From NCBI GenBank assembly GCA_016781505.1, contig JADDQF010000023.1:1-38030 (forward strand): a stretch of DNA of 38,030 nucleotides. The letters run 5' to 3'. Each line of letters opens with the position of its first letter. Within the stretch, counting starts at the first letter, position 1. The notes under the pieces are model-generated. The model saw only the letters and a program-made list of their open reading frames with translations. It ran no database searches and had not been told where the DNA came from. Both the position numbers and the translations under genes were made by a program. Below, piece after piece: positions 15,824-38,030 of this stretch. Origin of the DNA: a bacterium (GTDB taxonomy: Bacteria > Chloroflexota > Chloroflexia > Chloroflexales > Kallotenuaceae).

Positions 15824-15909
15824 GCCGGAGTGGTGAAATGGCAGACACGGGGGACTTAAAATCCCCTCCTCGCAAGGGGGTGCGGGTTCGAGTCCCGCCT
15901 CCGGCACCA
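15824..15909 (+). tRNA. tRNA-Leu, anticodon TAA
   Basis: 86 nt. Acceptor GCCGGAG (15824-15830) pairs with CTCCGGC (15899-15905); discriminator A and an encoded CCA follow (15907-15909). The anticodon stem GGGGA/TCCCC closes the loop CTTAAAA with anticodon TAA at 15857-15859. A long variable arm (about 15867-15880) makes it class II, as expected for Leu. The T arm carries GGTTCGAGTCC. It has its own promoter and terminator. Confidence 0.98.
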
Positions 15910-21321: not shown

Positions 21322-22935
21322 CTACTGGACGACGGACTGAGGCACAGCTGGCTGTTGCTCGGTTGCTCCCGATGGTTGGTTCGTCCGCCAGTACGTGGTC
21401 CATAGCCAGAGGGCTAGTGGCAACGTGTAGATTACAACCACGTACAAAGCTTGTGCTTCCAGCGTTTGTCCGCCAAGCTTGAGTGTGGGCAGCACAATGT
21501 ATTGGAGTAGATAGCTAGCCTGCGCCATCAGCGCCCACGCGGTCAGCCAGATCCACATCCCAAAGGTTGGTCGTAGCGCAAAGATAGCCAGTATCCAGAC
21601 GATATACCAGGGTTGGAACCATTGGCTGCTGACGAGCACGTACCATAGGAGCAGGCCAAGGAACGCGGACACGAGCGGCCGGCGTCGAAACCAGATGTGC
21701 CAACATTGCCACAGCAGGCTCAGCCCTAACAAGATGGTGCCAAATGAGCTAACAGCTCCCTGCACATCCGTCTGCTCGGCGATGGGCTGTGTCAATGCTT
21801 GCATCACTCTGTTGATCAGGCGCAAGCTCCCATCGGTTTGCAGCAGGTAGCTGACGACGGCTAACGGCGACGCGTTCAAAAAGCCTTCGCGAACTGCCAG
21901 ATTGTGCAATGTCGTGGTACGGCCTTGCCAGATGGCCATGAGTTTGGCGTCAAGTGACAGGCTGGCGAAGGCCGGTGGCAGATCCCAAAAGGGCGCATAC
22001 AACACGCCGACGGGCACGCAAAAGAGTAGGCTGGCCAGCACGAGCGCTCGTCCGCGGCGCCACCATGTCGGTTCGCTGCGCAGCCAAGCGAGCACAACCA
22101 GCGGCAAAAAGATCGCCGGCAAAAACTTGATCAGCGCGCCGCCGGTCAACGCCAGCACCGCCAGCCAATAGCGATCATGCCGAACGGCGACCAACGCCAG
22201 CAGCAGCGTGATGATCATCAGGCCGTCGTTGTGTCCTACCGCCACCAGTTCCCATAAGGCTAGTGGGGAGAAGAGCCACAAATAAACGCTGAGCGTTCTT
22301 GTCCGCGCGTCGGTGACGAGTGTACCAATCAGCAGGCCGCATACGAGATGGGTAATGGCCGCCAGCGCCTTGTACAACAGCACATTGCGCAGCAGCGAGT
22401 CGCCGCCGAGCCACACGCTGCCATAGCTGAGGTATTCCCACAGGGGGCCATAGGCCGAGGGTGCATTAGGCCAGCCGATATAGCGCAAGAATGGGTCGGA
22501 TTTGAATTGATTCGGCAGTGCTAGGTAAGGATTAGCGTCGTACGTCACGGCCATCCGCGAGCGAAAAAAGTAATCGAAGACATCGGTGGAGGTGACAGGG
22601 TACGCCCACAGGAGCAGCATGCTTGCGGCGATGGCTCCCGTCCAGATCAGCTGTGTTTGTTGCCGAAAAACGGGTCGCCACCACAGGATCAGCGCTCCCA
22701 GGACGTACAAGGTGTACAACGTGATGCCAATTAACACGAGCAGCATCGTCCCGCTGGCACTGTTTTTGGTCACGGTGCCAATGCTGGTGCGCGGCGTTGG
22801 GATCCAGCTCGGCAGCCAGAATAGCCAGGTGAGCAAGGCGTACAACAGCAGCGCGCCGGTGACCGCAATCAAGAGCCACAGATAGGCGCGCAGGGCTGGC
22901 GCGGACTGAGGTGGTGTTGTCAACTCCTGTTTCAT
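21322..22935 (-). CDS. GT-C type integral membrane glycosyltransferase
   Basis: 537 residues, about 12-13 membrane segments. GT-C enzymes use polyprenyl-phosphate sugars at the outer face of the membrane. The typical first outer loop is visible: STDVFDYFFRSRMAVTYDANPY (about residues 117-138), with acidic pair Asp-Val-Phe-Asp, followed by SAYGPLWEYLSYGSVWL; this resembles the polyprenol-dependent mannosyltransferase group. VAVGHNDGLMIITLLLALVA and LIKFLPAIFLPLV are further family marks. The start overlaps the stop of the methyltransferase (ATGA), so the two are translationally coupled. The sugar and acceptor are unknown. Confidence 0.88.
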   Translation of the reverse strand: MKQELTTPPQSAPALRAYLWLLIAVTGALLLYALLTWLFWLPSWIPTPRTSIGTVTKNSASGTMLLVLIGITLYTLYVLGALILWWRPVFRQQTQLIWTGAIAASMLLLWAYPVTSTDVFDYFFRSRMAVTYDANPYLALPNQFKSDPFLRYIGWPNAPSAYGPLWEYLSYGSVWLGGDSLLRNVLLYKALAAITHLVCGLLIGTLVTDARTRTLSVYLWLFSPLALWELVAVGHNDGLMIITLLLALVAVRHDRYWLAVLALTGGALIKFLPAIFLPLVVLAWLRSEPTWWRRGRALVLASLLFCVPVGVLYAPFWDLPPAFASLSLDAKLMAIWQGRTTTLHNLAVREGFLNASPLAVVSYLLQTDGSLRLINRVMQALTQPIAEQTDVQGAVSSFGTILLGLSLLWQCWHIWFRRRPLVSAFLGLLLWYVLVSSQWFQPWYIVWILAIFALRPTFGMWIWLTAWALMAQASYLLQYIVLPTLKLGGQTLEAQALYVVVIYTLPLALWLWTTYWRTNQPSGATEQQPAVPQSVVQ

Positions 22936-36743: not shown

Positions 36744-37115
36744 ATGTCCGTGCCTACCTTCCTCATCGTCGACGATGACGCCATCATTCGCCTTGTCATC
36801 CGGCGAACGCTGGCTCGTCACGATCCGCATGCCCTGGTCTTCTCAGCGGGAAGTGTAGCGGAGGCGCGGCAGCAACTGACGCATACCACGCCCCACATTG
36901 TGATTACCGACTACCACCTCACGGACGGCACAGGCCTTGACGTTCTCGCCGCAGCGCAGGCGCTCGCACCCATGCCGGCAAGCGTCGTGATTTCGGGCGA
37001 TACGGCGCGCAAAGCTGCGGTATTGGCTGCGGGAGCCGTCGCCTTTCTAGCCAAGCCCTTCGGACCCAACGACCTGCTCGACCTGCTGGGCACGCTCGGT
37101 TTGCTGCCTACCTAA
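36744..37115 (+). CDS. Stand-alone receiver (CheY-like) response regulator
   Basis: 123 residues, a single receiver domain. The acidic pair is Asp10/Asp11 (FLIVDDDAII), acceptor Asp56 (IVITDYHLTDG), Ser84 (VVISGD) in the Thr/Ser place, and Lys104 (FLAKPF), so it can be phosphorylated. No output domain; it would act by binding a partner, or as a phosphorelay step. No kinase nearby. GAAGG lies before the ATG. A second receiver gene converges on it at 37384-37767. Confidence 0.93.
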   Translation: MSVPTFLIVDDDAIIRLVIRRTLARHDPHALVFSAGSVAEARQQLTHTTPHIVITDYHLTDGTGLDVLAAAQALAPMPASVVISGDTARKAAVLAAGAVAFLAKPFGPNDLLDLLGTLGLLPT

Positions 37116-37160: not shown

Positions 37161-37383
37161 ACCAATTTCTTGCTGTCCATCTGGTCGTCCGCCCTGGAGC
37201 AAAATGTTCTGTAACACCAGGCGTCAACCTACTGCGCTCCCATGATGTTGGCAGTGAGCCAGAGGCATCCTCCAACGAGGGCCTTCCCCATAGAACCGCA
37301 TCCCCCGGACGCGCCTCACCGGTCTCAGTGGGGCGCTGTGACATTTGGAGGCTGATCCGGCAAAGCGGATGAAGTGAAGGCCA

Positions 37384-37767
37384 CTATGGGGTTAAGCCGC
37401 AGATCCGATTCAATGTAGCAGTTATGTCGTTGAGGTGAAACGGTTTGGAGATGCACGCTGCGACGCCCAATTCTTTTGAGACCAGCTCCCCTGGGAAGTG
37501 GGCTGTCATGAGTACCACCGGTACTCGATCACACGGCCGTCAGCCCAGTTGGGCAGCCCGCACTTCCCGGGCTGTCATGTCCACCAGGTCGTAGTCGAGC
37601 AAAATCACATCGGGCGCACACGCGTTGGTAGCTAGCTGGGTGATAGCGTCGGTGCCGGAGGATGCGCTGATCACGCTGTACCCTTCCTCTTCCAGAACAA
37701 GCGCCACCAGGTTGCGTAGGGCGTCGTCATCCTCGACAAGCAGCACGCGGCGTGGGAGTCTCGCCAT
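37384..37767 (-). pseudogene. Stand-alone receiver response regulator interrupted by one in-frame TGA
   Basis: From ATG 37767 (AAAGGGA upstream), a receiver domain of 127 codons with TGA at codon 76 (37542-37540) and TAG at 37384-37386. The frame and the family pattern continue cleanly past the TGA: acidic pair Asp13/Asp14 (VLLVEDDDALR), acceptor Asp58 (VILLDYD), then after the stop Thr88 (VVLMTAHFPG) and Lys108 (CISKPF). No other stop or shift interrupts it. The simplest reading is a recent nonsense change (CGA to TGA) or a base error; recoding is a less likely alternative (see findings). The product ending at TGA would lack the last third of the domain and could not fold. Confidence 0.85.
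37510..37526 (-). other. Compact hairpin 13 nt after the in-frame TGA
   Basis: On the minus strand, GAGTACC-GGT-GGTACTC is a perfect 7-bp stem with a 3-nt loop starting with G. A second hairpin (GCCC-AACT-GGGC) ends right before the TGA, and an 8-bp inverted repeat (37493-37500 with 37561-37568) encloses both. Confidence 0.5.
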
Positions 37768-37894
37768 GCTTTCATCCCTTTCCCAGCACTTACAAACCGG
37801 CGGAGCGACCAATGGACGTAGCGCCTGGCTCCACTGCAGGTTACTGCTGGCCTCCCCAGGGCGTGGTCAAACAGCGGCTGGGGCTGTGTGGTGC

Positions 37895-37924
37895 AGTATA
37901 GGGCTTTAGGTGACCTGTCGTCAA
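37895..37924 (-). promoter_or_regulatory. Promoter of the minus-strand receiver gene
   Basis: On the minus strand, TTGACG (37919-37924) and TATACT (37895-37900) with an 18-bp spacer, about 128 bp before the ATG. No gene is visible between here and the window end at 38030. Confidence 0.6.
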
Positions 37925-38030
37925 TGGTGCCTTCCATCACAGCGAAAACTTGCCGAACCTGCCTAGCAATGCCAAAGGGTGGGGGGCCGCGCCAGCGTAT
38001 GAACGCTCACGGCAGGTTTGGATCTTGCCG

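Follow-up and report, generated by a model that had tools for sequence, protein, structure and literature searches.

The locus raises the question of how a single in-frame TGA in a gene for a stand-alone receiver domain is to be read: as a nonsense mutation or base error, as a site of functional readthrough, or as a codon for selenocysteine (Sec). The window (the whole stretch of DNA analysed, 38,030 nucleotides) is contig 23 of a draft genome of 4.18 Mb (159 contigs, 96% complete), and the gene lies near its end, the contig edge being 263 bases upstream of the receiver start codon.

The interrupted gene and its frame

37384..37767, minus strand: stand-alone receiver gene of 127 codons and a stop, broken by TGA at codon 76
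37767-37765 and 37386-37384, minus strand: ATG start and TAG stop of the receiver gene
37542-37540, minus strand: in-frame TGA, codon 76
37543..37767, minus strand: coding part before the TGA, 75 residues, beta1 to alpha3, D58 included
37387..37539, minus strand: part after the TGA, 51 codons, beta4 to alpha5, with T88 and K108
37775..37780, minus strand: SD-like AAGGGA, 7 nt upstream of the receiver ATG, found by inspection
37895..37924, minus strand: promoter-like TTGACG-18 nt-TATACT, a consensus match only

The TGA at codon 76, followed in frame by 51 sense codons, was confirmed on the minus strand, where the frame ends at the TAG; the landmarks VVLMTAH (T88) and ISKPF (K108) were found in the same frame of the translation, as had been described earlier. 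Neither a frameshift nor a second stop was found in the receiver frame besides the TGA of codon 76. A promoter, a start and a ribosome site had been proposed upstream; the ATG, the SD-like AAGGGA and one promoter-like site were located there, the latter as a single site with 10/12 consensus matches (0.3 expected from shuffling). The base after the UGA is C.

The protein obtained by reading through the TGA was compared with PF00072: E 4.8e-15, residues 8–119 of 127. The match spans the TGA, and the frame on both sides is therefore far beyond chance. The active-site D/D/T/K residues (acidic residues at the end of beta1, D58, T88 and K108) are present only with the TGA read through; coding of beta4 to alpha5 with the Thr and Lys is cut off from the start of the gene by the TGA at codon 76.

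Predicted structure (36 relatives; TGA read as Cys): mean pLDDT 92; beta1 7–11, alpha1 15–27, beta2 31–35, alpha2 38–47, beta3 54–58, alpha3 66–74, beta4 84–88, alpha4 93–100, beta5 104–107, alpha5 112–123. Codon 76 falls in the predicted alpha3–beta4 loop, opposite the phosphorylation site; in the receiver fold the active-site residues, here D58, T88 and K108, stand at the strand ends on the side opposite this loop.

Selenocysteine machinery of the genome

C80: SelA, E 1.9e-135
C148: SelB, above the family cut-off
C118: SelD, with its own in-frame UGA
C16: tRNA-Sec, 68 bits versus a cut-off of 47
C27 and C94: two formate dehydrogenase alpha genes, in-frame UGA in the context QARI-U-HSSTVPGL

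The earlier note had named absence of sel genes as a ground for dropping the Sec reading. This ground fell away, SelA, SelB, SelD and tRNA-Sec all being found. The full pathway is present, and at least three genes, SelD and both of those for formate dehydrogenase alpha, have an in-frame UGA where a Sec site is known; a UGA of this genome can thus be Sec, and with the sel genes in place the Sec reading needed a direct test. In the window itself, positions 15824-15905 (plus strand) matched the tRNA-Sec model weakly, the 40 bits falling short of the cut-off; they probably hold an ordinary tRNA whose variable arm is long.

The hairpin compared with SECIS elements

37510..37526, minus strand: hairpin GAGTACC-GGT-GGTACTC, 7 bp, loop GGU, beginning 13 nt past the TGA

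The perfect 7-bp hairpin with a GGU loop 13 nt after the TGA is present in the sequence as first described. Its distance had been held to suit a bacterial SECIS element; this holds against the loose bSECIS model, but not against the Sec genes of the order, in which nt 22–23 are GG in 24/24 and not CC. UGA contexts were read for 16 SelD and 8 formate dehydrogenase genes of the order, the U of UGA being counted as 1: nt 22 and 23 – G in 24/24; nt 24 – U or C in 23/24; in most of these genes nt 22–24 lie in a predicted apical loop of 4–5 nt. The candidate has C22, C23 and G24, with GGU at 24–26 in a 3-nt loop, and so falls outside the pattern of the order's Sec genes. Fixed positions of the E. 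coli element are U17 and the loop bases G23 and U24 (review, PMC8659212).

The candidate fits the wide published bSECIS model (PMC13188914): loop 3, stem 7, spacing 20, −8.1 kcal/mol. The same model was also satisfied by 8.9% of 9,479 codon positions in the genes of the window, by 5.7% of synonymous recodings of the candidate's downstream peptide, and by 17/20 known Sec genes. The fit is worth a likelihood factor of about 10–15 in favour of Sec, and is weak evidence because 6–9% of null sequences give it as well. Under a narrower criterion (7 or more pairs, loop containing GG[TC]), which was post hoc, having been chosen after the hairpin was seen, fits were rare (0.25–0.7%); of three true Sec contexts tested from this genome, two fell outside it.

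Stability of the fold around the UGA: z −1.3 (96 nt); for the UGA plus 48 nt, 9.5% of synonymous versions were at least as stable. No SECIS match was obtained in a Rfam scan of 37300–37900 at E ≤ 10. The hairpin covers the codons for R-V-P-V-V-L, a beta4 motif that is family-wide, and its core CCGGTGGT is accounted for by the codons of the V-P-V-V-L motif that underlie it. An inverted match GGGAAGTG ... CACTTCCC around the TGA was considered and set aside as unremarkable, 21% of synonymous versions being equally or more stable. An 11-nt direct repeat CATGACAGCCC flanks the TGA (37579-37569 and 37510-37500, minus strand) and is probably due to chance.

Relatives and column 76

The alignment column of codon 76 was read in 84 other receivers; no Cys and no other stop was found in it, and the commonest residues were D, L, S, N and R. 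It had been asked earlier whether homologues carry TGA, Arg or Cys at this codon: Arg is among the commonest residues, while Cys and TGA are absent in the 84 relatives. In the nearest paralogues of single-domain type this column holds D, H or N, mostly with Pro as the next residue; Cys79 is not typical of near relatives. No orthologue of the receiver was found in 82 searched genomes of the order (best match 39% identical), and when GTDB contigs were scanned at the peptide level for a closer match, only receivers of 25–44% identity over part or the whole of the domain came up. Receiver matches number 97 in this genome and 441 in four genomes of the genus.

One paralogue in a sister genome is interrupted as well:

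G002 C183:3014-3361, minus strand: paralogous receiver with a mid-domain TAG, directly after the phospho-acceptor Asp

Its TAG means that such receivers are interrupted by stops which no Sec machinery reads. Stops in other receivers of G000 and G005 (C146, C97 and G005:C3) were discarded as natural ends or as lying before the start, so that the one in G002:C183 is the only mid-domain case. The selD gene of the same sister genome is followed, some 1.2 kb downstream and on its own strand, by a stand-alone receiver (G002:C1, about 37.6–40.1 kb).

State of the gene

Profile scores against relatives: part before the TGA – 63 bits, lower in 4/40 relatives; part after the TGA – 27 bits, lower in 9/40 intact relatives. 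Both parts thus lie within the range of relatives; the protein has therefore not decayed preferentially after the TGA, and any decay of the receiver is recent at most. Codon score: 0.33 bits per codon before the TGA versus −0.18 after it; among 51-codon stretches of the window genes, −0.18 lies under the 0.5 percentile. The full codon score after the TGA is lower than in the matching segment of each receiver fetched from the genome; the score for synonymous choice only is near the worst of these receivers, some halves of intact paralogues being nearly as low, and 51 codons underlie the whole codon-usage signal. Upstream of the TGA, two residues present in 90% or more of relatives, Pro62 and Gly66, have already been replaced.

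The poor codon usage after the TGA and the loss of Pro62 and Gly66 are at most suggestive of a lightly constrained, fast-changing gene. It had been argued that a decayed gene would usually show more damage; this stands as far as the otherwise intact open frame is concerned, but not for the two lost residues and the atypical codon choice after the TGA.

Genomic setting

The last 47 bases of the window (37984-38030) are repeated in inverted orientation where contig 111 ends (21463-21509), which suggests that contigs 23 and 111 adjoin in the assembly graph. If they are joined, the upstream neighbour would be a divergently transcribed gene of 808 codons for a membrane protein, by appearance a putative glycosyltransferase. 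Downstream and tail to tail lies a second stand-alone receiver (36744-37115, plus strand), 34% identical over 73 residues; at this identity it was rejected as a parental copy, not being a recent duplicate. It has the atypical motif DYHLTDGTG, without Pro four residues past the phospho-acceptor Asp.

Explanations weighed

Very probably the TGA of codon 76 arose by one nonsense mutation, or reflects a base error, in a paralogue that diverges fast. The earlier ranking of this explanation in first place is borne out by the SECIS mismatch and by the complete lack of Cys in column 76 of the 84 relatives. The probabilities expressed here and below for the three main readings are judgements. The gene would be one of the large, fast-diverging set of stand-alone receivers in the genus, and one nonsense change would have arisen at codon 76, either by genuine, recent mutation of the strain sampled or through a miscalled base of the draft assembly. 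Ribosomes would presumably stop at the UGA and release 75 residues, beta1 to alpha3; this product would be without beta4, alpha4, beta5, alpha5, Thr88 and Lys108, should not fold as a working receiver, and would probably be inactive. The hairpin past the UGA would be a by-product of the V-P-V-V-L codons. What is observed directly is that codon 76 is TGA, that the frame is intact, that relatives have neither Cys nor Sec there, and that the hairpin departs from the SECIS elements of the genome. Counterweights to a nonsense change or error are the known Sec-site UGAs of the genome, the single stop in a frame free of shifts, and the profile score after the TGA, which is within range.

Functional low-level readthrough, in which a near-cognate tRNA would decode some of the UGA and yield a little full-length receiver beside the 75-residue form, is considered unlikely. 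UGA followed by C, as here, is a leaky context, and downstream of the TGA both T88 and K108 are retained, with a profile score like that of relatives; against this, the short form would be without half the fold, codon usage past the TGA is poor, and no orthologue that could show conservation was found in 82 genomes. Somewhat less probable still is decoding by SelB and tRNA-Sec through the hairpin at 37526-37510, which would place a Sec76-Arg-Pro-Cys79 redox pair on the receiver. The complete machinery (SelA, SelB, SelD and tRNA-Sec), the hairpin that satisfies the loose model and the Cys at +3 from the UGA codon speak for it; they are outweighed by the spacing and loop, unlike those of 24/24 Sec genes of the order, by the absence of any homologue with Cys or TGA at column 76, by the lack of conservation, and by the position of residue 76 in the alpha3–beta4 loop, away from the phosphorylation site. 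The 6–9% of null sequences that satisfy the loose model weigh in the same direction, as does the literature searched, in which no response-regulator selenoprotein was found. The more specific form of this proposal, a lineage-specific selenoprotein receiver with a Sec76 and Cys79 redox switch and a SECIS of shifted spacing, is held to be equally improbable. Genome-wide reassignment of UGA to an amino acid has a negligible probability: the in-frame TGA of the candidate is the only point in its favour, and it is refuted by four genes of the window that end normally in TGA; the known Sec genes, moreover, use UGA in a context-dependent manner.

Meaning and comparison with known systems

As it stands, the candidate is an ordinary interrupted paralogue, the result of a common kind of event. 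The useful outcome is a calibration: in this GC-rich genome, which decodes Sec, hairpins that pass for SECIS under the loose model arise by chance at about 1 in 11 codon positions, and true elements are told from chance ones much better by the UGA-to-GG spacing seen in the Sec genes of the genome itself. Were the Sec reading true, a receiver domain would take a redox input based on selenium, something that the literature searched does not describe.

Like single-domain PF00072 receivers, the candidate has on read-through the full domain, including D58, T88, K108 and the acidic residues that close beta1; unlike them, it has a stop at codon 76 and its motif residues Pro62 and Gly66 are replaced. 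With the receiver of G002 C183 it shares a single in-frame stop in an otherwise intact stand-alone receiver; in that paralogue, however, the stop is TAG, it follows the phospho-acceptor Asp directly, and no selenocysteine route exists for it. With SelD (C118) and formate dehydrogenase alpha (C27, C94) the candidate has in common a lone in-frame UGA and, behind it, a hairpin whose loop is of the GGU type; these Sec genes have GG at nt 22–23 in a small loop and conserved Sec homologues, whereas the candidate has CC at nt 22–23, a triloop, and homologues with neither Sec nor Cys.
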